From: Flavobacteriales bacterium
GTDB taxonomy: Bacteria > Bacteroidota > Bacteroidia > Flavobacteriales_D > Crocinitomicaceae
Assembly: GCA_003331365.1 (NCBI GenBank)
Contig: QOQC01000002.1
Location: 1-51,326 of the forward strand
DNA length: 51,326 bases
Direction: 5' to 3'
This document shows, one piece after another, positions 15,678-43,559 of this stretch; within the stretch, counting starts at the first letter, position 1, and each line of letters begins with the position of its first letter. A program made the translations under genes and the position numbers. A model generated the notes under the pieces. It was not told where the DNA came from, searched no databases, and worked only from the letters and a program-made list of their open reading frames with translations.

Positions 15678-16943
15678 ATGAAAATTTTAATTAAACAAGC
15701 CAAAATTATCGATTCATCATCCAAGTTTAATGGTGAAGTTAAAGATGTACTTATTGTAAATGGAAAAATCGAAAACATCGGGAGTAAACTTTCATCTTCA
15801 GATAAAAAAACGATTGAAGTGAGCTCCAAAAACCTCCATTTATCAAAGGGCTGGATTGACTTAAAATCTCATTTTTGTGATCCTGGAAATGAATATAAAG
15901 AAACACTTTCAAGCGGCCTAGACAATGCAGGAGCGGGAGGCTTTACAAAAGTTGCTGTTTTACCCTCGACTGATCCTGTTGTCGATCACAAATCATTAAT
16001 CGAATACATTCTCAGAAAATCAGAATCGCATGCGGTAGATACCATCCCCATGGCGTGTATCACAAAATCCATGGAAGGAAAAGAGTTATCTGAGATGAAT
16101 GACCTTAAGAATGCTGGTGCTGTTCTTTTTTCAGATGATATGAATACGCCGAAAGCGCAGGTTTTAACAAACGCACTATTGTATGGAGGTAATCATAATT
16201 GTAAAATTATTGTAAACTCATTTAATCATTCTCTATCGAAAGGAATACAAGTGAATGAAGGACTAGCCTCAATAAAAACCGGATTGAAAGGAGATCCTGA
16301 AATATCTGAAGTCATTGAAATTGAAAAACATATTCGATTAATTGAATACACCGAAGGTTCGTTGCACTTAAGTGGTATTTCTACCAAAGAGGGTGTGGAA
16401 CTTATTCGTACCGCAAAAAAGAAAGGATTAAATCTTACAGCTGATGTTCATGTAATGAACCTCTGTTTTAATGAGGAAAAAGTATTAAACTTTGACACTG
16501 CATTTAAAACACTGCCGGTTTTAAGGGATGAAAATAATGTAACAGCTTTATGGAAAGCTGTGGAGGATGGAACAATAGATTTTATAGTATCTGACCATAG
16601 ACCTGCCGTCAAAGAAGACAAGGAACGAGAATTTGAATACGCAAGCTTTGGCACACCTCAGCTTCAAACCATGTTCTGTGCATTGAACTCTCAAAATAAA
16701 ATGAGTATTGAAAAATTAGTTGAAGTCTTATCTGATAAAACGAGGGTTTTTCTCAAATACAGTGCGTTCTCAATTGAAAAAGGTAATCAAGCAGAACTTA
16801 CCTTATTTGATCCCTCTCTGGATTTCGAATTTGATTCAAAACAAAAGAAAGAGAATCAATTATACTCTCCTTTTATGAATGAAAAATTAAAAGGAAAAGT
16901 TTTGGGTGTAGTCAATAACAATAAACTCATCTTAAATCACTGA
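15678..16943 (+). CDS. pyrC: Dihydroorotase-like amidohydrolase with incomplete metal site
   Basis: By overall sequence this is a type I dihydroorotase (421 residues), the third step of pyrimidine synthesis. Family landmarks are GWIDLKSHFCDPG (residues 58-70), AVLPSTDPV, LFSDDMN, LHLSGIST and GTIDFIVSDHRP. However, the metal-binding HxH is KSH here, because the first His is Lys63. The conserved Arg after it is Cys67, and the HHL motif later in the barrel is MNL. The last Asp-His of SDH remains. The same drift is found, as far as I recall, in other Bacteroidota proteins annotated PyrC. It may be an inactive paralogue that supports another enzyme, or use an altered metal site. It follows the BatA gene by 3 nt and precedes the PmtA-like gene by 2 nt. 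Confidence 0.75.
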   Translation: MKILIKQAKIIDSSSKFNGEVKDVLIVNGKIENIGSKLSSSDKKTIEVSSKNLHLSKGWIDLKSHFCDPGNEYKETLSSGLDNAGAGGFTKVAVLPSTDPVVDHKSLIEYILRKSESHAVDTIPMACITKSMEGKELSEMNDLKNAGAVLFSDDMNTPKAQVLTNALLYGGNHNCKIIVNSFNHSLSKGIQVNEGLASIKTGLKGDPEISEVIEIEKHIRLIEYTEGSLHLSGISTKEGVELIRTAKKKGLNLTADVHVMNLCFNEEKVLNFDTAFKTLPVLRDENNVTALWKAVEDGTIDFIVSDHRPAVKEDKEREFEYASFGTPQLQTMFCALNSQNKMSIEKLVEVLSDKTRVFLKYSAFSIEKGNQAELTLFDPSLDFEFDSKQKKENQLYSPFMNEKLKGKVLGVVNNNKLILNH

Positions 16944-29193: not shown

Positions 29194-32100
29194 TTACTTT
29201 ACTAATTCATTCAATTCATCAATTAAGTTTGAACGCTCTAGTTCACTACTCAAATAGAAAACGACGTGTTGTATTCCGTTGAAAACAACGAAACTAAAGG
29301 TTTTGTTGGATCGAAGTAACCAGTTTGCAAGCTTTCCTGGTATCTTGTCTCCAATTTCCACCTCATATTCAAAAAGTTCATTAGTTTCAAACAGCTTTTC
29401 TTCCATGCCTTTCATGTAAAAGGACATAATGGGAGTAATCTTAGCTTTATTCAAAATAGCAGATTTAATTAACGAATTTTCTTTATGATAATTAAAGAGA
29501 GCCACCCTGTTAAGGCGCTCTATTGTACTTTCGTCAAACACATCTGATTGCAATTCATAAGAAACAAATTCATCTTTAATAGTTGATTCCTTTACTCTTA
29601 TTATAGGAATTTGAATTCGATTCTTTTGAGATTCAGTAGAGGTATTCGATTGACTACTTTGCTTTTCTTTTATTAATTCTGTGGACTCCATGGATATCAC
29701 AGGCACAGTAGTCGATTCTTTTTCAAAAAGGATACTGTTTCCTTTTTCATTTAAAAGTGCTTTAGATTTTTGAATTGAAATTCGCTCACCATTATAAAAT
29801 GCAACAATAAATGCATCAGAAATACCTAAAGAGACTACCTCTTTTTGCCTTTCCCTTGCCTCATCAATTGATTCGAATTTTCCGGAGGAATATCTGTAAA
29901 GACCGGAAGATAAATAATAATTTAATTCCTGAAGCTGAGTCAATTCACCAGCTCTTATTTTTCGATTGAATGCTCCAACCTGAACAGTATAAAACAATCC
30001 ACTTACATTGACACCACTTACTACTTGAGACCCATGCTGTTCTATTCGCAATTGTTGATTGGTATTATTAGATTTAGTATTATCGGTATTTTCATTGTTT
30101 ACAAGGCTGCCATTTTCTTCGGCTCTGGAGGATTCACCACCAGACCCGGAAGAGGAAATAGTAGCATTTGAATTTTCAGCATTTATGGCAATCAATTCAT
30201 TTCTGTTTGAAGCTACACATGTACCATTTCTTTCATGTTCTTTTCCTTTCCAAAATGTCAATCGTTCATCATTACAATAGGATACAACAAAAGCATCTGA
30301 ATAACCAATTGACCTTATTGTTTTTTGTGCACCCAAAGCGTCTGAACTATTATTAAAATAGCCAGCCATATATACAATTAATCCGTTATTCAGTTTTTGC
30401 CCAGAAACTGGAGTAAATTCGCGATATACATCTTCTCTCACTGGTCTTCTGAAAGCTCCTACTTGCACTCTAAAATTCAATCCTGATGGATTAGATTCAA
30501 AAATTGGTAAAGTTTCCGTATTTCTTTCAACAACCTCTTCTTCAAGCATAGCAAAGCTATTTCTATCAGAATTTAAAGGCTGATACACCTCAAGAATTGA
30601 TTGATTAATCCTAGATGAGGATGAAAGGTTATTATTTGATAGAGAATTGTTTACATAAGATTCAAAAATTTCGGACGAGTCTATGGATTTCATCTCTTCC
30701 ACCAATGAAAGAATATCATTGGATAACCTTTTTCGTTTTCTTTCACTTACAAACTGAAAAGCATTTTCTTCACTTTCGGTGATTGACTTTTCTGATTCAT
30801 TTCTTTTTTCGTTATCTAGTTTAACCAGCTCTTCAAGTTGTAGAGAGAGTAGCGCTCTTTTTTCCACATAACTCTTAAAGGAATTTGATTCTATAAAATT
30901 ATTGTCAATAAAGTCATCAGTAGATTCAAGTTCATCGCCAATTCCCGAGATAACTTCATTTATATCATTAGTATTTCTTAGACTTTTATCCTGGTTTATG
31001 TACACTTCAGGATTTATCTCCCCTCTGAATAAATACTCAAATGTTTCAGAATCTTCCAGCTGAACAAGTTGTTCCTTTCGCTCACTTATACCCTCCTTAA
31101 GATAGGTAATGGCATCTTGAATATCTGACAGCTTTTGAATTAATTCTATTTGGTCATTAGTTAGGTCCGAACTATTAATATTTTGTCTTAAAGACTCATC
31201 AAGCTCAAACATCAACAACTCATTTTCAACTAATAAATCTTCTAACAAAAGAAATTCATCTTCAATTTTGTCTCGATTTTTTACATAATCATAATAGGCA
31301 TTACTTTTTCGAATTTCATTTGTAGAATTATCCTCTACAGCTGAATATTTTATATCAATATTATTTTTTGAAAGCGTCTTTAATTCCTCGAGCTCAATTT
31401 GCAACATATCTTTCTTTCGCTCATTTGCATCAATTAATTTTGAAATGAGTGATTTAACATTAGAAGAAGAAGCTTGATCAAGCTTCATTTTCAAATCTCG
31501 TTCTTTGAATTCCAATTCACGTAATTGTGCTTCTATATTACTTTTTCCTTCAAATTTCACATTTGAATATTTGCGTTTAATCTCAAGATATTTGTTTTCA
31601 ATTTTCTCATTTGCTATTGCTATATCAAGTTCTTTTTGAAAATACGCTTTTAAATTCTCCTCATTTGCTTGAACTATATCTCTTTCGTCTATCTTTTCCG
31701 AAGATGGATCTCTCATATTTTCCTCCAAAACCAATGAGGTCAAATATTCAACTGTCTTACTGTTTTCCTGAATAAATTGATCATCTTGATCAACTTTTTC
31801 GGTTTCTGAAGCTATTATCTCTGTTGGACTCTCCTCTTCTTTGGTATCGATGGTTTCTGCTATGGTTTCGCTAGACTCCTCTTCAACTAGATCTTCTGAC
31901 CTCGAATCAGTAGCTACAACAGTTTCTTCTTCATTCCCTTCAATTTCGGTAGCAACTACCTCTGTTGAGCGCTCCTCTTCTCTAGTTTCGATGGTTTCTG
32001 CTATGGTTTCGCTAGACTCCTCTTCAACTAGATATTCTGACCTCGAATCAGTAGCTACAACCGTTTCTTCTTCATTCCCTTCAATTTCGGTAGCAAGGAC

Positions 32101-35100
32101 CTCTGTTGAGCGCTCCTCTTCTTTGGTTTCGATGGTTTCTGCTATTGTCTCGGTAGACTCCTCTTCAACTAGCTCTTCTGACCTCGAATCAGTAGCTACA
32201 ACCGTTTCTTCTTCATTTCCTTCAATTTCGGTAGCAAGCACCTCTGTTGAGCCCTCCTCTTCGATGGTTTCAATGGTTTCTGCTATGGTTTCGGAAGACT
32301 CCTCTTCAACTAACTCTTCTGACCTAGAATCAGTAGCTACAACCGTTTCTTCTTCATTCAATTCAATTTCGGTAGTAAGTACCTCTGTTGAGCTCTCCTC
32401 CTCTCTGGTTTCGATGGTTTCTACTAATGTCTCGGTGGACTCCTCTTCAACTAACTCTTCTGACCTGGAATCAGTAGCTACAAACGTTTCTTCTTCATTC
32501 CCTTCAATTTCGGTAGCAAGGACCTCTGTTGAGCGCTCCTCTTCTTTGGTTTCGATGGTTTCTGCTATTGCCTCGGTAGACTCCTCTTCAACTAACCGTT
32601 CTGAATCGATATTGGGTACAATAGAAGCCAAATTTTCATTTACTTCAATAATCTCCGAGATATTATTTTCTGAAACCTGAATAAGCTCGCTAAGCTCTTC
32701 ATTCAACTCAAGATCATTTTCATCAGCATGTATATTTAATTGTTCAATAAATTCTGCTTCTAATACAACCAATAATGAATCCTTAATAGTTTGCGGAAAT
32801 TGGGACGAGGCAATTTTAGTTATATCATCTTCTCTATCATCAGTTATAATCTCCAGCTCTTCCTGCTTTTCAATTTCTTTGTTATTAAATATTTCATCCG
32901 CGTAAAATTTAGTTTTTTCCTCTTCTGCGATTAATAGATCAGTACTATTCATTTCGCTTTCAATACTCGAATCAGTTTCAATAAGTGTTAGATTCAACAA
33001 AGATTCTTTTGAAAGGATAATTTGTTCAGCAAGTTCTTCCCTTTCGAGTTCAAGATTCTTTTTCTTTTTTTCCTTCTTTGAAATATTAATCTCAACCATG
33101 GTTATAGAATCAGAAATTAACTTCCATTCTTCAATGGTTTTAGCTGCAAGAAGCTTTTTATTCAAATTATTGAGTGTATTTTCTTCACTCAAAACCTCAT
33201 CTTTAGCATTTGCGATTAATTTTTCCTTATTTTCAAATTCCTTCTCAAGCTGACCTTGTTTTTCCCTTGCCATTTCCGGAATGGAGGGAACCATGGGCTC
33301 AAAGCTTTCTGGCGCTTTATAACTGCTTATAAGAGTGCTTACCGAATCGAGCTTTCCATTGTATTTATTTTCACTTATAGCCTTGTTAACCGAAGAAATC
33401 TCCTCGTAATTACGATTCAGCTGCCCATCACTTGGGAATTTATCAAATAACTCCGTTTGGTCATCGAAATTCTCAATGAGTGCTTTGCGTTTCACATAAG
33501 ACTCCCTGAGTTCTATTTGCAATTTTCCTTTCTCATTTTCATCCTTGGAGTCTAATTCAGATTTAATTCTATTGATATTTTCATCAATATTGGAAAGCTT
33601 TTCTTTAGCTTCTATCAAATTTTTGGCGATTTGATTTTTTTGTCTTTTTTGATCTTCAATCTCAGCTTCTATATCATACAGCTCATCAATCTTCTCATCA
33701 ATTTCTGCATTAGAAAGAATTTCGGTAATAATACTTTCATTTATTTCTTCACTTGCCTTAATTGATTCTGAATTCACCACTAATTTTGAAAATTCCTGAA
33801 AATCAATTTGATCGATTTCAGCAATTACATCTGAATTATTAATGAGCTGCTCGTCTAGTACCACAACCTCTTTTGAATCCATCAGCTTCCGAGTACAAAT
33901 CACTTGATAATCAAAACCATCTACTTCTGGAGGGAAATTGACCTCATCCATAAATTGTATATCACTTCCTTCTATTGATGCCGTTATTTCATAAACACCA
34001 GGTGCAGGAATTAAAAAATGAACCGTACCTTTTTCATTTGTGTTAAATGGCCCAAACTTTTCTTGTGAATTTCTATTTTTTAAATAAAATTGTGCATTTC
34101 TATTTTCACTATTTATTTGATCTCGAAAAGCCAAACTAGAAACGAAAGTCGGTACTTTTTCATCGCTAAGTCTGGATTTAACCACCTCTAATAAACCAAC
34201 ATCTGAATTTCGATTCGTTGAAAAATAAGCATAAGCCGCAGATTCAACAGGAATGTATAGAAAGTCATCATAGGTTGAAGAATATGGGAAATTTAAATTT
34301 TCAATCGTTCCGTATTCGAGACTTTTTAGATTCAATCGTATCCTAAATACATCCATTCCACCAATCGAACTATGTCCATCAGAGCTAAAATACAAATACC
34401 CACTTCCTTCATCATAAAAAGGAAAATCTTCGTTGAATGAAGAGTTGACATCTGAACCCAATCGAATTGGTTCTTGCCACTCATTATCTGATCCTTTTTT
34501 TTGAATAAACAAGTCTTTTCCTGTTTCTTCTATTTTGGAATAACTGGAAAAAAACCTGTATTTCATGCCTCTCTTAAAAACATATTTAGGCACAAAACTC
34601 ATTTTTTGATTGATTTTGGAAAATTCATCATTTACCGAATAGAGCTTATAATTTTCTGAATCAAATACATATGATGAAAAATAGTCATCTAATGGCATGG
34701 ATTCCATAGAAATTACCTCAATCGCTCTTGGACTTTTTAATAAACTTAGCGCGTTTTGACATCTTTTGATTTCTTCTAAACAGCGATAGTCTTTATCTTT
34801 ATTTGACCTGATCTTTTCATAGTCCTCATACATTTCTATGGCTTGTTGAAACTGATAATTTAAATGGTATAAACGACCCTTGAAATAGAATACGTCAATC
34901 GGAAATCCTTCTTGATTCAATAGATAATCAAAATATTTCTGAGAAGATTTAGGACTCTTTGTATAATAAAGACAAACAGCATATTTGTAATTATAATCTA
35001 TGTTTTTAATATCATTAGATAATAACTGACGAAAACCCTCAATGGCGCTTTTATAATCTTCCTTTGAAAATGAAGCATTGGACTTTTTCAAAAGCTGACT

Positions 35101-35184
35101 TTCAGTTTGGGCAATACCTAACTGAATCGTACTGAGAAGCACAAAAAAAAGAACAAAACGATATTTGTAGTTATTTAAAAACAA
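29194..35184 (-). CDS. Giant PorE-like TPR/PD40 protein with acidic repeats and two SPOR-like domains
   Basis: A 1996-residue envelope protein. The order is: signal peptide YRFVLFFVLLSTIQLGIAQ; TPR helices (~25-140); a PD40-type propeller (~150-345, with DEGSGYLYFSSDGHSSIGG); a carboxypeptidase-regulatory-like fold (~350-430, with GVYEITASIEG); coiled coils (~500-760); an acidic array of 47-residue repeats (~861-1128); more coiled coil; SPOR-like domain 1 (~1570-1645, RVQVGAFRRPVRE) and 2 (~1730-1803, YTVQVGAFNRKIR), each ending in a DAFVV/DAFIV strand; and a C-terminal domain of unknown type. The first half matches PorE-like T9SS proteins, but PorE ends in an OmpA-like domain. The only start is TTG at 35184, in frame after the plsY stop 27 nt upstream. 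SPOR domains bind denuded peptidoglycan in other bacteria. Confidence 0.8.
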   Translation of the reverse strand: MFLNNYKYRFVLFFVLLSTIQLGIAQTESQLLKKSNASFSKEDYKSAIEGFRQLLSNDIKNIDYNYKYAVCLYYTKSPKSSQKYFDYLLNQEGFPIDVFYFKGRLYHLNYQFQQAIEMYEDYEKIRSNKDKDYRCLEEIKRCQNALSLLKSPRAIEVISMESMPLDDYFSSYVFDSENYKLYSVNDEFSKINQKMSFVPKYVFKRGMKYRFFSSYSKIEETGKDLFIQKKGSDNEWQEPIRLGSDVNSSFNEDFPFYDEGSGYLYFSSDGHSSIGGMDVFRIRLNLKSLEYGTIENLNFPYSSTYDDFLYIPVESAAYAYFSTNRNSDVGLLEVVKSRLSDEKVPTFVSSLAFRDQINSENRNAQFYLKNRNSQEKFGPFNTNEKGTVHFLIPAPGVYEITASIEGSDIQFMDEVNFPPEVDGFDYQVICTRKLMDSKEVVVLDEQLINNSDVIAEIDQIDFQEFSKLVVNSESIKASEEINESIITEILSNAEIDEKIDELYDIEAEIEDQKRQKNQIAKNLIEAKEKLSNIDENINRIKSELDSKDENEKGKLQIELRESYVKRKALIENFDDQTELFDKFPSDGQLNRNYEEISSVNKAISENKYNGKLDSVSTLISSYKAPESFEPMVPSIPEMAREKQGQLEKEFENKEKLIANAKDEVLSEENTLNNLNKKLLAAKTIEEWKLISDSITMVEINISKKEKKKKNLELEREELAEQIILSKESLLNLTLIETDSSIESEMNSTDLLIAEEEKTKFYADEIFNNKEIEKQEELEIITDDREDDITKIASSQFPQTIKDSLLVVLEAEFIEQLNIHADENDLELNEELSELIQVSENNISEIIEVNENLASIVPNIDSERLVEEESTEAIAETIETKEEERSTEVLATEIEGNEEETFVATDSRSEELVEEESTETLVETIETREEESSTEVLTTEIELNEEETVVATDSRSEELVEEESSETIAETIETIEEEGSTEVLATEIEGNEEETVVATDSRSEELVEEESTETIAETIETKEEERSTEVLATEIEGNEEETVVATDSRSEYLVEEESSETIAETIETREEERSTEVVATEIEGNEEETVVATDSRSEDLVEEESSETIAETIDTKEEESPTEIIASETEKVDQDDQFIQENSKTVEYLTSLVLEENMRDPSSEKIDERDIVQANEENLKAYFQKELDIAIANEKIENKYLEIKRKYSNVKFEGKSNIEAQLRELEFKERDLKMKLDQASSSNVKSLISKLIDANERKKDMLQIELEELKTLSKNNIDIKYSAVEDNSTNEIRKSNAYYDYVKNRDKIEDEFLLLEDLLVENELLMFELDESLRQNINSSDLTNDQIELIQKLSDIQDAITYLKEGISERKEQLVQLEDSETFEYLFRGEINPEVYINQDKSLRNTNDINEVISGIGDELESTDDFIDNNFIESNSFKSYVEKRALLSLQLEELVKLDNEKRNESEKSITESEENAFQFVSERKRKRLSNDILSLVEEMKSIDSSEIFESYVNNSLSNNNLSSSSRINQSILEVYQPLNSDRNSFAMLEEEVVERNTETLPIFESNPSGLNFRVQVGAFRRPVREDVYREFTPVSGQKLNNGLIVYMAGYFNNSSDALGAQKTIRSIGYSDAFVVSYCNDERLTFWKGKEHERNGTCVASNRNELIAINAENSNATISSSGSGGESSRAEENGSLVNNENTDNTKSNNTNQQLRIEQHGSQVVSGVNVSGLFYTVQVGAFNRKIRAGELTQLQELNYYLSSGLYRYSSGKFESIDEARERQKEVVSLGISDAFIVAFYNGERISIQKSKALLNEKGNSILFEKESTTVPVISMESTELIKEKQSSQSNTSTESQKNRIQIPIIRVKESTIKDEFVSYELQSDVFDESTIERLNRVALFNYHKENSLIKSAILNKAKITPIMSFYMKGMEEKLFETNELFEYEVEIGDKIPGKLANWLLRSNKTFSFVVFNGIQHVVFYLSSELERSNLIDELNELVK
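31800..32601 (-). repeat. 141-bp coding tandem repeats (47 residues), five full copies plus a partial one
   Basis: Reading on the minus strand, units start near 32601, 32460, 32319, 32178 and 32037, with a sixth, divergent and truncated copy from 31896. The core is LVEEESTETIAETIETKEEE, followed by STEVLATEIEGNEEETVVATDSRS. The units are Glu/Thr/Ser-rich and strongly acidic. Copies 3, 4 and 5 are nearly identical, which implies recent duplication or conversion and makes copy number likely to vary between strains. Confidence 0.9.
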
Positions 35185-35211: not shown

Positions 35212-35841
35212 TTACGCCTTACGACCTAAAAAGTTCATTTTATTCTCCTCTCCACGAAGTAGGCGGTTAATATTTTTTCTGTGAGAAAACAAAACAATCA
35301 AGGAAACAAGAATGGAAAAAATAATCATTATTCTCGCATCCTCATGCATGGCAAAAAAGCTTATAAAAGGAAATAATATTGATGCAATAATAGCACCAAG
35401 TGAGACGTATTGCGAAATCAAAAAAACGATTAAAAATATAGCCAATGAAATAAGTGCAGTGTCTAAATTAATTGCCAAAATGATTCCCAAAGTTGTTGCA
35501 ACTCCTTTACCTCCGCGAAAATTTGCAAATACCGGAAAAACATGGCCAATTACTGCACACAACGAAGCAATCAGCTGAAGAATAAGAACTTCATCTTTGA
35601 AGCCATAATAAAGGCTACTGAGAAAAATAGGCAATGAAGCTGCTAGATAACCCTTTCCAATATCCACAAATAAAACAATCCACCCCCATTTATTTCCCAA
35701 TACTCGAAATGTATTTGTTGCTCCAGCATTATGACTACCATGCTCCCTAATATCAATATTATGAAATATTTTCCCCACCCAGACAGCAGTTGGGAAAGAA
35801 CCAATGATGTAGGAAACAAATATGAGTATGAAAAATATCAT
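35212..35841 (-). CDS. plsY: Acyl-phosphate:glycerol-3-phosphate acyltransferase PlsY
   Basis: Integral membrane enzyme that makes lysophosphatidic acid from acyl-phosphate and glycerol-3-phosphate, the first step of phospholipid synthesis. The three conserved motifs are present: SYIIGSFPTA near the N-terminus, GSHNAGATN (active-site loop), and FRGGKGVATTLG. About five membrane spans are seen in its 209 residues. The start overlaps the stop of the 1530-residue gene (ATGA), so it is translated from the same message. The giant SPOR-domain protein follows 27 nt later. Confidence 0.95.
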   Translation of the reverse strand: MIFFILIFVSYIIGSFPTAVWVGKIFHNIDIREHGSHNAGATNTFRVLGNKWGWIVLFVDIGKGYLAASLPIFLSSLYYGFKDEVLILQLIASLCAVIGHVFPVFANFRGGKGVATTLGIILAINLDTALISLAIFLIVFLISQYVSLGAIIASILFPFISFFAMHEDARIMIIFSILVSLIVLFSHRKNINRLLRGEENKMNFLGRKA

Positions 35842-38800
35842 TTTATTTTTTTTAGCCGCATTAATTCATACATTTTCCCTTCATCTCCATCTGTGAAAGT
35901 AAAGTTTTTTGACTTTCTTTTATCTTCCTTAATACTCAGAATTGTATTCATATAACCAACATCGGGAGAATAAATAAACAATTTACCATTCTTCTTTTCT
36001 TTAATGAATTTAAATGAATAATTTAATTCTGAGGCCTCATCCTGAATATCTATTTCAAATCCTTGAACAGATTCTTCAGTTCCTGACTGGAGGAAAAGCA
36101 TTTTCATAGGAATTCTTTTAAGAACAATTTTTTCATTAATTGAAAAAACAGGTGTTCGAGAATATTTGGTTATAAACCCGGAAACAGCGTCACGATCAGC
36201 GATTTTCTTATTCATGTAATATTCAAGATAAAGCTCTGGAAAAATATATGATTGATTTAAGAAGGTAGGCGTTTTTTTCAACTTATCTTCATCATAATCT
36301 TTGAACAGTTTTTCAGCCTTATCTTCACTTTTCGATAAGATCGTAAAGATATCGGTTAACCTCTCTTGCGTGGATTTACTGAAAGTATATTCCTCCAATG
36401 TATCGGACTGCTGAAAAATACCTGCCATATAATGTGAAATATTTTTAGGGAGTGGAATATCCATTTTTGTAAATGCATTGATACTTGTTAGATTCTTTTT
36501 CTTGTTGTAATTAATATCTCCAAAAGAGGTTAAAACAACTGGTGCAAGATCAATTCCCAAATCAATTTCACCTCTACCGTTCAATGAACAAGTCTTCTCA
36601 TTTAAAATCAGAGAGTTATTCCGATAAGAATATTTTTCACCAGGAAGCTGATCAGAAAGCGTAAATTGTTCCAAATCATAATCATACTCTAAAATACCAG
36701 AAGCCGAAAACATTAATACGTCTTTCTCTCCTTCTTTTTTAGATAAAAAAGTGGGGTAAACATATAAACTATCTTGAACTTCCGTATCCTTCCACAAGAA
36801 ACCAGCAGCCAATGCTCCTTTATTTTTGCTGGTTGGATTTTGCGGTATAGGAATCTGCACATTTGAAGCCAAAATCGTATCACTGAATTTCATCCAAGAT
36901 TTATTAAAATCACATAAATGATTCACTCTTGTATATCCATCACAAATTACACCATCATTTTTTGACGAAACGCTAAAGCCACCGAAATAATCAAACTTTG
37001 AGCTCAACTTGAAATTGGACTCTTCCTTTATATCAGTTTTTGCAATGGTCTGGATTTTATCAAAATAGATGCTTCCAATATCAATTTTCGTAAGAGCGCT
37101 ATCCCGATCGTAGTATAAATACAGCCCATTACCATAAAATTCATTGCGACCCTTAACTTCAACCGTAACATCAGAAAATTGATGGATTTTTGTTATTCTA
37201 TTTGCCAAAATTTTCGCATTATAAAGTGTATCCATAACTGCATTTTTTTGGATTTTTAATCTTTTCCCTTCAGGAAAGATAAACGCATCTCCCAATTCCA
37301 AAAAATTAACTTTAAAACAATTTATAGCTTCATTTTTTAAGTCATATTGTGCGCTAATTGACTTAAACTGAAGGGAATCCTGATTTTCATCCATGGAGAA
37401 AAAGTTGTTCTTCACTATACCTTCACTACTCTCAAATTTTGTTTCCGCTTCTTTGTTCTTTTCAAAATCAATTGACTCTCCATCCATCTGCCAAAGAAAC
37501 TTATCCATCTGACAGTAATAATTATTGCTTGGAAATTTAATACGTTTCGTGCCACTTGAATTAAATTCCCCAATTCGTTTTTCAAAAGAAATATATGATT
37601 TTAACCCATCAGATTGAATGGCTAATGGATTTTCACCAGCCTTAGCAAATCGATTTCTAAGATTAAACGATGATGAGTCTGAAAATACTTCCGTCGAAGA
37701 AAATGTATATTCCTCCGCAAACATTGATGCATCAAGTAAATTTAAACTACCAGAGCCATCAACGCCATTTTCAGAAAAAGTAAGTTTCCCTTTGAGGTAA
37801 CATTGATTGCCAAACATCGAAATAAAATTATCTCTATGGGTTTTTACAGTCAATACCTTTTGCCTAGGTTTAAATGAAATTTCAGCAATTTCAGCTGCAA
37901 CCTCAGGAAACTCAACACCAATTGAATCTTTGGTATTATAAAATTCTGCCAAACCAATTGTAGAGTCAGGCAAAAAAGTAAGTTTTCTTGAGATCGCCTC
38001 TGCGTTCATGAAATCAATGGTACCAGCTCCTTGCAACCCGTTATTTGACAAAACTATTTTATTTTGATACCTCGATTCAGTCTCATAAAAAGAATAACCC
38101 TCTTCTGGAGCCTTAGTCACAAAACCAAAAGAATAATCGTTCATTATTTTCAATGGCTCATCCAGATCTGGGAAAATACCATCAGACTTCAATAACCCCG
38201 TAAAGCGTAGACTTTTTTCATCAAAATTATCCAAGCTATCCAATACGAAAGGATCAAGCGCGTAATAAAATCTTGTACTATCATAAGAACCATTTACAAT
38301 AGACTTTGAATTGTAAAATATTTTAAGTGAATCTTTTACCTCAACATATGGATACTCTCCATTTCCACCATGTCGTCCTGATTTCGAATCTTGTACATCA
38401 ATGTACAATTTTCCTTTAAAATCATTAAAGCTACTCACCATATCAATTGGCCTTCCACCGTCTCTTGGATTCAATGGTAAAACACTTAAGTAAGCCTCAT
38501 TCGTTGTATCAATTGAAATGGTAAAATCTTCATAATCAAATATTGATTCTATATTATGAGTAATCAATTTACCTGACATTAGCCATCCAGAGAATATAAT
38601 GTCTCGATTTTCAAGCATTCGAATATAGGATGAGTCAGGAAACAAAACGGTTCTTTGCTTGGTTGAGAAATTAACCTGTTCAATTTCATTTAAATAAATT
38701 TCATTTTCATCTACATCTATATAGGCATAGCATGGTGTCCTCTTTCTTCTTTTTGACACTTCTTGATATTCTTTCTGCATTTTCTGTAAATATGGATCCT

Positions 38801-40430
38801 TGCGAATCTCATCTTCAGAATAATTCAGCATTTTAGGCCTAAGGTCAGTAACAAACATGAGCTCGTCATAATCCTTTTCACCTTTCTTAGATAATGCATA
38901 ATTAAGTAGTTTCTGCTCTACAATCACATGGCTTGAATTGGAGGAATATTGAATAAATCCCATACTGGATATATCAATAAGCTGAGATTTGGCTTGTCCT
39001 ACTGTTTTGCGAAGTTTACTGGCAACTAATCCAACAGGAAGATAAGTTGTATCTTCCACAATACTCAATTCTGCTATTTTCATCAAGGGATTAATATTAC
39101 CAATGCCTGAAAATTTATCAAACGTACGTTCATCAAAATAGTCCCAGGACTCAACATGCGCATATCTTTGAGATTGCGCTGTACCAACCTCATATGTATA
39201 CATGGGAAATGCTGTATTCAAACGCCAAGATAAAACAGGAGCATCAACAAATATTTTAAAATAATTATCTATAAAAGGTATAGAATTAGTGCCTTTTTTA
39301 CCTGCAGTAATCCTTAACTCTTTTTGATCTTCATTCCAATATACAACCGCATCAGTTGTATATAACGAATCCCCATTGTCGTAATACATCGAAATATCTG
39401 CATTTCTCGTAATAATTTGTTGTGGAGTCATTAAAAAATTAAGTGATCGAAGCTCAAAAAGACTTTTATCTTTATAATTAACGGTGAGTTTTGCCAGGTT
39501 ATCTTCTACACCCCTTCCGATAAAACTTGCTCCTTCAAGAGTAAATCCACCGTCATAATCAATTTGATCCCTTAATCCCTTAATTAATAATCTTTTTTCA
39601 AATGAATTAAAAATAGGACTAGATTCACCTTCTTTTAAATTAAATACCGTTTTATCTTCTAGTCTACCCAAAATCGGTTGCTCAAAATACGGTGTGGTAA
39701 GTTCCACAGTATCGACTTTTAAAATAGATTGATTTGCCTTTACCGTATAGCCCCTAACTTTAGCGAAGGTTTCATTTTTTGGGAAATGAACCTTTTCCCA
39801 TGTCAGTTTTCCTCCTCTTGCTTTCCAAATGTTTTGAGCAATATCAAAGTAACCTGTTGTATTGTATACAACAATACTATCTCTAGGTCCAGATTGATAA
39901 ACCATACATTTAAGATCTGTGCTTTTCACTACCAATCGAAGAGATTTTTTATTTTCCCATTTCAAGCTTCCTCCATCAAGTACCCATCTATGATCTGGCT
40001 TCTTATAAAAGCTTCTGTACTTAAACAGTCCCTCACTAAAATGAATAAATTCCCTAAATTCTACTGGCACCATTTCACTTAAAAAAGTTTCATAGAATGC
40101 ATGCCATTGAGCTGTAAATGAAGGAGAAAAAGAATTCGTTTTTGAATAGTAAAGGGCATATATATAATGCATTACATCTGATGACTCATATGACTTTTTA
40201 AACATTGAATTACATGTCTCAATAAATCGATTGTATTCTTGAGAATTTAATTTTGAGTTCTGAATGAATTTCGAAAAATCATGTTTGACGAAATGTGAAA
40301 AAGACTCATTTTCAATGATTTTAGGTAACTGTTTTAAGAGCTTATCTTTCTCCGATGATAGTTTCTGTGCATGAATTGAACCGAGCAAAAAGAAAAATAA
40401 TGAAATAAGTAAAAAACGCATAAACCTCAT
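35838..40430 (-). CDS. Large exported protein, 1530 residues, unknown function
   Basis: I do not recognise a domain. The signal peptide is RFLLISLFFFLLGSIHAQ. The next ~100 residues look helical (KIIENESFSHFVKHDF and so on). The remainder is a very long beta-rich region with alternating patterns and recurring DSLYTTDAVVYW- and GLYLYYDRDS-like strands, consistent with a filamentous or barrel-like beta structure; no transmembrane helix, no cysteine pattern and no sorting domain are evident. I start at the ATG at 40430, which overlaps the prmA stop (ATGA), and not at 40454. It lies between prmA and plsY. A long beta-rich exported protein near lipid genes may be a lipid- or LPS-handling bridge, but this is a guess. 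Confidence 0.6.
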   Translation of the reverse strand: MRFMRFLLISLFFFLLGSIHAQKLSSEKDKLLKQLPKIIENESFSHFVKHDFSKFIQNSKLNSQEYNRFIETCNSMFKKSYESSDVMHYIYALYYSKTNSFSPSFTAQWHAFYETFLSEMVPVEFREFIHFSEGLFKYRSFYKKPDHRWVLDGGSLKWENKKSLRLVVKSTDLKCMVYQSGPRDSIVVYNTTGYFDIAQNIWKARGGKLTWEKVHFPKNETFAKVRGYTVKANQSILKVDTVELTTPYFEQPILGRLEDKTVFNLKEGESSPIFNSFEKRLLIKGLRDQIDYDGGFTLEGASFIGRGVEDNLAKLTVNYKDKSLFELRSLNFLMTPQQIITRNADISMYYDNGDSLYTTDAVVYWNEDQKELRITAGKKGTNSIPFIDNYFKIFVDAPVLSWRLNTAFPMYTYEVGTAQSQRYAHVESWDYFDERTFDKFSGIGNINPLMKIAELSIVEDTTYLPVGLVASKLRKTVGQAKSQLIDISSMGFIQYSSNSSHVIVEQKLLNYALSKKGEKDYDELMFVTDLRPKMLNYSEDEIRKDPYLQKMQKEYQEVSKRRKRTPCYAYIDVDENEIYLNEIEQVNFSTKQRTVLFPDSSYIRMLENRDIIFSGWLMSGKLITHNIESIFDYEDFTISIDTTNEAYLSVLPLNPRDGGRPIDMVSSFNDFKGKLYIDVQDSKSGRHGGNGEYPYVEVKDSLKIFYNSKSIVNGSYDSTRFYYALDPFVLDSLDNFDEKSLRFTGLLKSDGIFPDLDEPLKIMNDYSFGFVTKAPEEGYSFYETESRYQNKIVLSNNGLQGAGTIDFMNAEAISRKLTFLPDSTIGLAEFYNTKDSIGVEFPEVAAEIAEISFKPRQKVLTVKTHRDNFISMFGNQCYLKGKLTFSENGVDGSGSLNLLDASMFAEEYTFSSTEVFSDSSSFNLRNRFAKAGENPLAIQSDGLKSYISFEKRIGEFNSSGTKRIKFPSNNYYCQMDKFLWQMDGESIDFEKNKEAETKFESSEGIVKNNFFSMDENQDSLQFKSISAQYDLKNEAINCFKVNFLELGDAFIFPEGKRLKIQKNAVMDTLYNAKILANRITKIHQFSDVTVEVKGRNEFYGNGLYLYYDRDSALTKIDIGSIYFDKIQTIAKTDIKEESNFKLSSKFDYFGGFSVSSKNDGVICDGYTRVNHLCDFNKSWMKFSDTILASNVQIPIPQNPTSKNKGALAAGFLWKDTEVQDSLYVYPTFLSKKEGEKDVLMFSASGILEYDYDLEQFTLSDQLPGEKYSYRNNSLILNEKTCSLNGRGEIDLGIDLAPVVLTSFGDINYNKKKNLTSINAFTKMDIPLPKNISHYMAGIFQQSDTLEEYTFSKSTQERLTDIFTILSKSEDKAEKLFKDYDEDKLKKTPTFLNQSYIFPELYLEYYMNKKIADRDAVSGFITKYSRTPVFSINEKIVLKRIPMKMLFLQSGTEESVQGFEIDIQDEASELNYSFKFIKEKKNGKLFIYSPDVGYMNTILSIKEDKRKSKNFTFTDGDEGKMYELMRLKKIK

Positions 40431-41260
40431 TTTTGAAGAATGAGGATTGCCCATTCATCCTTTACAGTAGTTGATATAAATTTGAATCCAACTTGATTAG
40501 CCAGAGTTTTCAACTCACTGACATCTGTACTAAAAAAACCACTTAAATATAACAATCCATTTTCACATAATGAGTCGAAATATTTCGGTAAATGTTTCTT
40601 TAAAATATTTTTATTAATGTTTGCAAGTATGACATCAAATTTCTTGCCATCAATGAGATTTACATCCCCACAAATCGTATCAATAAACTCACATTCATTT
40701 AAAACAATATTTTCTTCACAGTTTTCAATAGACCATTCTTCAATATCAATTGCGGTTATGTCTTTGGAACCCTTCTTTTCAGATAAAATGGCTAAAACAC
40801 CAGTACCTGTACCCATATCCAATACCTTTTTACCTACTAAATCTAACCGAAGGATAGCTTCACACATCAAAAAAGTTGTCTGATGATGCCCTGTTCCGAA
40901 AGACATTTTTGGTTGAATTATAATGGTGGAATTGAAATTTTCTTTGTGTTCGTGAAAAGGCGCTCTTATATAGAGTTGTTCAGCTATTTCAACAGGATCA
41001 AAGTTAGCCTCCCAGCTTGCATTCCAATTTTGATTTTCGATTTCTAATTTTTCATATGAAATTTCCACATCGTCTCCTTCTAATGATCCCAATAAAGAGT
41101 TAAAGATTAACTCATCAAAATCCGTATTCGAAATAAATGCCTTGAGTATTCCATCCTCCTCATAGAATCCATGAAAATCAATTTCTGATAGATAGGCGAT
41201 TAATATTTCTGTCCATGGCTTTAAAGGAGTTATTTTAAATTGAAATTCTAGATGACTCAT
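40427..41260 (-). CDS. prmA: Ribosomal protein L11 methyltransferase PrmA
   Basis: Methylates ribosomal protein L11 using SAM. The motif SFGTGHHQTTFLM is diagnostic, followed by the SAM site VLDMGTGTGVLAILS and the acidic ITAIDIEEW. The ILANINKNIL segment matches the catalytic N-x-N region. The N-terminal ~100 residues form the L11-binding domain. Its 277 residues are normal for Bacteroidota. The start overlaps the tpiA stop (ATGA) and the stop overlaps the next start (ATGA), so it is fully embedded in the operon. Confidence 0.93.
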   Translation of the reverse strand: MSHLEFQFKITPLKPWTEILIAYLSEIDFHGFYEEDGILKAFISNTDFDELIFNSLLGSLEGDDVEISYEKLEIENQNWNASWEANFDPVEIAEQLYIRAPFHEHKENFNSTIIIQPKMSFGTGHHQTTFLMCEAILRLDLVGKKVLDMGTGTGVLAILSEKKGSKDITAIDIEEWSIENCEENIVLNECEFIDTICGDVNLIDGKKFDVILANINKNILKKHLPKYFDSLCENGLLYLSGFFSTDVSELKTLANQVGFKFISTTVKDEWAILILQK

Positions 41261-43016: not shown

Positions 43017-43559
43017 TTAACCTTCTACATCTAAATGAATTAAGGCAAAAACAGCATAATTCATCATATCAAAATAATTTCCTTCTACCCCCTCACTTGC
43101 AATTGTTTTACCCGAGTTATCTTCTATTTTTTTAATTCTCAAAATCTTGGTTAAGATTAAATCCGTTAAGGAACTCACTCGCATATCTCTCCACGCTTCG
43201 CCATAATCATGATTTTTACTCTCCATGAGCTCAAACGCCTCTTTAAATACAGCGTCATACCATTCCAATGCCTTCTCACTTGTCAATTCGTCTTGTTCAA
43301 AATCAAATTTATATCTCAATTGCACAACAGCCATTGCACAATAATTAACTATAGAGGAAAATGCATCATCGAAACTCTCTCCTACTTTATTTTCTCCCGT
43401 ATCTTGAATGGTACGTATGCGGTTAGCCTTTATAAAAATTTGATCTGTAAGCGAGCTGGGACGCAAAATCCGCCATGAAGTACCATAATCAATTGTCTTA
43501 TTTCTGAATATTTCTCTACAAACATTCATTACCTTTGTGTACTGTTTTGTTGTTTTCAT
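43017..43559 (-). CDS. DUF1599 family protein, internally duplicated
   Basis: A 180-residue soluble protein of DUF1599 (nucleotide modification associated domain 1). Two copies of the domain are obvious: YGTSWRILRPSSLTDQIFIKANRI (first half) and YGEAWRDMRVSSLTDLILTKILRI (second half). The conserved acidic and tyrosine positions match between the copies. Its molecular role is not established. It sits in the conserved Bacteroidota block DUF1599-folP-BT_3928-tpiA, divergent from folP with starts only 8 nt apart. The folP promoter candidate lies inside its coding sequence. Confidence 0.85.
   Translation of the reverse strand: MKTTKQYTKVMNVCREIFRNKTIDYGTSWRILRPSSLTDQIFIKANRIRTIQDTGENKVGESFDDAFSSIVNYCAMAVVQLRYKFDFEQDELTSEKALEWYDAVFKEAFELMESKNHDYGEAWRDMRVSSLTDLILTKILRIKKIEDNSGKTIASEGVEGNYFDMMNYAVFALIHLDVEG
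43530..43537 (+). promoter_or_regulatory. Candidate -7 box for folP
   Basis: TACCTTTG fits TAnnTTTG. It lies inside the 5' end of the divergent DUF1599 gene, 30 nt before the folP ATG at 43568. The -33 region lacks an exact TTG. Confidence 0.37.

Follow-up and report, generated by a model that had tools for sequence, protein, structure and literature searches.

The window analyzed here, a stretch of 51,326 nucleotides from a Flavobacteriales metagenome-assembled genome (MAG) that is 68% complete, encodes a homolog of class I dihydroorotase (DHOase) with a disrupted active site, referred to below as pseudo-DHOase. We consider it likely, with a probability of roughly 80%, that this catalytically dead protein acts in Bacteroidia as a non-catalytic, PyrX-like partner of class A PyrB (class A2), and that the dihydroorotase reaction is carried out by a separate PyrC of the PRK09236 type with a QVH motif. 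Comparison across genomes showed active-site loss, purifying selection, a second DHOase, exclusion of PyrI, a class A PyrB, and joint loss with PyrB. The first-pass annotation had suggested a pseudo-enzyme that supports aspartate carbamoyltransferase (ATCase) in the manner of PyrC' (PyrX), and this suggestion is supported by the second DHOase, the clade-wide loss of HxH, the PyrI exclusion, the joint absences with PyrB, and the PyrB class.

Features of the window (positions counted from its first letter)
Feature	Position	Strand	Basis
Membrane protein with BatA-like N-terminal domain, 683 aa	13623..15674	+	Pfam BatA 3.5e-19
Pseudo-dihydroorotase (PyrX-like), 421 aa	15678..16943	+	ATG start; ORF list and alignment
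Codons 63–67 (KSHFC) at the HxHxR metal site	15864..15878	+	Translation and alignment to Aquifex DHOase
RrnaAD/SAM-methyltransferase-like protein, 185 aa	16946..17503	+	Pfam
1996-aa protein adjoining the 1538-aa protein	29194..35184		SPOR domain near the C-terminus
1538-aa protein	35838..40454	-	No Pfam match
DUF1599 (nucleotide modification associated domain) protein	43017..43559	-

Fold, active site, and the second dihydroorotase

The earlier description of the open reading frame as dihydroorotase-like was confirmed, as homology to class I dihydroorotase spans the full length of the product in NCBIfam and PDB searches and in the predicted fold. TIGR00857 gave 267 bits against a model cut-off of 279, and none of the NCBIfam models shown reached its own cut-off. 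Among solved structures, the DHOase of Aquifex aeolicus was the best match along the entire protein. An AlphaFold model built from a 20-member alignment (mean pLDDT 89, pTM 0.90) had as its top PDB match the same enzyme in its ATCase-bound state (3d6n_A, TM 0.92). The protein has the amidohydrolase fold and displays no homology to PyrI-type regulatory chains. A tRNA scan of the window gave no hits.

In Aquifex DHOase, the α-site zinc is bound by His61, His63, and Asp153, with Asp305 close by, and His180 and His232 form an empty β-site that can be removed with activity kept (PMC3880350). The alignment showed that in pseudo-DHOase His61 is replaced by Lys63, Arg65 by Cys67, and Asn95 by Ser97, and the β-site ligands His180 and His232 by N180 and G233, respectively; H65 (His63 of Aquifex), D153 (Asp153), and D306 (Asp305) are kept. 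The HxH plus Asp153 α-site of an active class I dihydroorotase is therefore incomplete, its first histidine being a lysine. The first-pass annotation had read the HxH as KSH, the following arginine as cysteine, and the HHL motif as MNL, and had stated that several metal or substrate ligands are gone while FSDD, LHLSG, and SDH remain. These readings held: the motif is K63-S64-H65, with the first histidine alone lost in the window copy, the HHL/NHL site is M260-N261-L262, the three retained motifs lie at residues 151–154, 229–233, and 305–307, and N180 and G233 add two further losses. Because the Aquifex β-site can be dispensed with, the decisive loss is, as judged from the alignment, that of the first histidine of HxH together with Arg65 and Asn95.

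The HxH pair was kept in none of 147 non-redundant relatives from the Bacteroidota clade. Position 61 was occupied by K, S, F, R, Q, or N and position 63 by N, S, H, or D, and D153 was retained in only 56 of the 147 (the columns were read off an automatic alignment, so that individual counts may deviate slightly). Since losses at the same sites recur across these relatives, they are not a quirk of sequencing or assembly, and the variable replacements at 61 and 63 look as expected once metal binding escapes selection. The H65, D153, and D306 of the window copy and the histidine after the Asp306 position, which is invariant in 20 divergent clade members, would be compatible with an amidohydrolase that is still active but has an altered metal centre or another substrate, and the loss of the β-site is in itself indecisive. 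However, the variation at 61, 63, and 153 came with no alternative conserved ligand set across the 147 relatives, and the presence of the gene tracks PyrB and PyrI status (below). We thus regard an active enzyme as quite unlikely, and the altered-metal alternative of the first-pass annotation is disfavoured.

That annotation had also proposed a search for a second pyrC carrying HxH; a second pyrC was found, but its motif is QVH. This PRK09236-type PyrC (QVHFREPG) was detected in 242 of 246 sampled Bacteroidia genomes, full-length in nearly all relatives and as a fragment at the end of a contig (C54) in the source genome. It shares superfamily and host genomes with pseudo-DHOase, but it is a separate gene (represented by PDB 2gwn of Porphyromonas gingivalis) that keeps the H180, H232, and D305 positions, and the two are only about 21–32% identical. 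All 12 genomes with PyrI have this PyrC and no pseudo-DHOase, so in these genomes it must be the active enzyme, and we infer that it is also the functional dihydroorotase where pseudo-DHOase is present.

Co-occurrence with PyrB, PyrI, and the neighbouring genes

PyrI was found in 12 of the 246 genomes and pseudo-DHOase in 0 of those 12 (Fisher 3e-12, kinship ignored; the exclusion partly reflects one clade). PyrB was absent from six near-complete genomes, five of which were also without pseudo-DHOase (Fisher 1.6e-4). Four of the double absences are clear (G249, G264, G294, and G203) and the fifth genome (G395) is heavily fragmented; G264 and G294 belong to one genus, which leaves approximately three independent joint absences (G249, the G264/G294 genus, and G203). 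Pseudo-DHOase was present and PyrB undetected in G347, which is 95% complete. Partnerless PyrB also exists, since G051, G132, G255, G282, and genus g151 carry PyrB with neither pseudo-DHOase nor PyrI.

In the source assembly neither PyrB nor PyrI was found, and the absence of PyrB is probably due to incompleteness of the MAG. The earlier remark that no pyrB is nearby thus extends to the entire assembly. Adjacency to pyrB, a usual although not strictly defining trait of PyrX, was seen at 0 of 80 named Bacteroidia loci. Relatives of the source genome have the combination of class A2, namely a class A PyrB and no PyrI. In a PyrB tree, which was quick and had several long branches so that the broad split alone was used, the PyrBs of genomes with pseudo-DHOase grouped with class A ATCases of PyrX-bearing Alphaproteobacteria, Collinsella, and Nonomuraea, and were set apart from the PyrI-linked PyrBs by a very long branch. 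The PyrB of G051 joined those of Bacillus and Fusobacterium.

The PyrB of genus g151 (genomes of ~2 Mb; G363 and G399) lies on a very long branch beside the pseudo-DHOase-linked PyrBs and may have become partner-independent. In G350 a PyrB of the PyrI-linked type accompanies a second PyrB gene, and G307 has a PyrB placed close to the PyrI-linked group; both oddities are likely MAG contamination.

The stop codon of the BatA-like gene lies 3 bases before the start of pseudo-DHOase, and the RrnaAD/SAM-methyltransferase-like gene, a neighbour in close relatives only, starts 2 bases after it. Of 82 loci, 61 had the BatA-like gene upstream, most of them outside Chitinophagaceae, and this recurrence would suit a pseudo-DHOase that has the membrane protein as its partner, instead of PyrB, and a role in the cell envelope. 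However, Chitinophaga and relatives have pseudo-DHOase without the BatA-like neighbour, and G041 and G128 have pseudo-DHOase and gave no BatA-like match. Conversely, the BatA-like gene is found without pseudo-DHOase in three PyrI-positive genomes (G339, G360, and G438). The four clear PyrB-less genomes also keep the BatA-like gene, suggesting that the loss of pseudo-DHOase goes together with that of PyrB and is not tied to the neighbouring gene. As the two genes are separable in both directions, we rejected a partnership with the BatA-like protein as quite unlikely.

Distribution, selection, and origin

Matches to pseudo-DHOase at E <= 1e-60 were present in 214 of the 246 genomes (~87%), the source genome included; this count may be slightly high, as near-limit matches (e.g. 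G313, G364, G400, G409, G423, and G437) and G109 were counted uninspected. Values of dN/dS in several pairs of close relatives were 0.04–0.09 (two saturated pairs were discarded), indicating purifying selection and hence that the gene is not decaying, and 30 columns were invariant over 20 divergent clade members. The product of a functionless pseudogene would also show lost and variable active-site residues, but this reading is contradicted by the selection and by the full-length distribution, and it is hardly credible. On a 12.5 kb circular record, plasmid 2 of Rufibacter tibetensis (NZ_CP012645.1), pseudo-DHOase and the gene upstream of it are accompanied by DUF4199 proteins and by two glycosyltransferases; the setting resembles that of Chitinophaga-like chromosomes, is odd for a plasmid, and is perhaps an assembly product.

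All 15 orthologs from sister classes within the phylum keep H61, H63, R65, N95, D153, H180, H232, and D305, and pyrB lies within the short fetched flank in five of the 15; HxH was lost in all five further Bacteroidia copies compared alongside them. Because the sister-class orthologs retain the whole active site, DHOase catalysis was, on this evidence, lost within Bacteroidota. After masking of the active-site columns, the Bacteroidia clade (100/100) nested in an active-type Bacteroidota clade (98/97.9), beside one active-type group (93/87) and apart from alphaproteobacterial PyrX. The trees were built without Pseudomonas sequences, and alphaproteobacterial and Acinetobacter copies served as stand-ins. 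Common ancestry with proteobacterial PyrX had reached 94% SH-aLRT in a small tree, but it was no longer resolved once the active-site columns were masked and, with active Bacteroidota enzymes included, gave way to a position nested among them; forcing the Bacteroidia and proteobacterial pseudo groups together was not rejected (p-AU 0.29). The inactivation was, on these trees, probably independent of that in Proteobacteria. On a plasmid of Hymenobacter canadensis, the gene right after pyrB encodes a class I DHOase that has the full set of active-site residues, unlike the other Bacteroidia copies compared; it falls on a different branch and was possibly acquired.

We tentatively suggest, at less than even odds, that a Bacteroidota ATCase-DHOase of class A1 turned once into class A2, independently of Proteobacteria, after the PRK09236-type PyrC had taken over catalysis, and that the dead subunit went on to become the standard PyrB partner in most Bacteroidia, possibly a regulatory one, instead of PyrI.

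Proposed role and comparison with known systems

In Pseudomonas, the inactive pDHO is required for ATCase and converts PyrB from a monomer to an active dodecamer (PMC7053772), and disruption of smc01361 (proposed PyrX) of Sinorhizobium meliloti results in pyrimidine auxotrophy (PMC5929573). In view of these precedents, scaffolding of PyrB is by analogy the most likely role of pseudo-DHOase. In this role the protein would bind trimers of PyrB, probably in the manner of the dodecamers of Aquifex and Pseudomonas, and would be needed for the assembly or activity of PyrB, with the dihydroorotase step performed by the QVH-type PyrC.

Like Pseudomonas PyrX/pDHO (class A2, PMC7053772), pseudo-DHOase is a class I DHOase homolog of ~45 kDa that has lost zinc and substrate residues, with an active PyrC encoded elsewhere, a class A PyrB, and no PyrI. 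In contrast with it, the Bacteroidia copy is unlinked from pyrB and belongs to a clade placed inside active Bacteroidota enzymes. The copies of S. meliloti and other Alphaproteobacteria likewise have lost HxH and occur with class A PyrB, but they adjoin pyrB. Since a sister-class ortholog can adjoin pyrB, we regard the missing linkage as a difference and not as an objection. The DHOase of the Aquifex ATCase-DHOase dodecamer (class A1, 3d6n) is the closest solved relative in sequence and fold, whereas it is active and keeps H61, H63, D153, H180, and H232.

No published report of a Bacteroidia pseudo-DHOase was found in the open-access literature searched. The find extends across the class and is a variant, probably of independent origin, of a known arrangement. 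Should the proposed PyrB partnership be real, an early pyrimidine-synthesis step involves a pseudo-enzyme subunit in the majority of Bacteroidia, such as Flavobacterium, Chitinophaga, Polaribacter, and related genera, and the current annotation of this subunit as an active dihydroorotase misleads metabolic models. The sharp change from active orthologs in the sister classes to dead copies in Bacteroidia offers a clean comparison of the states before and after the loss, in which to ask why the DHOase scaffold persists without its chemistry.
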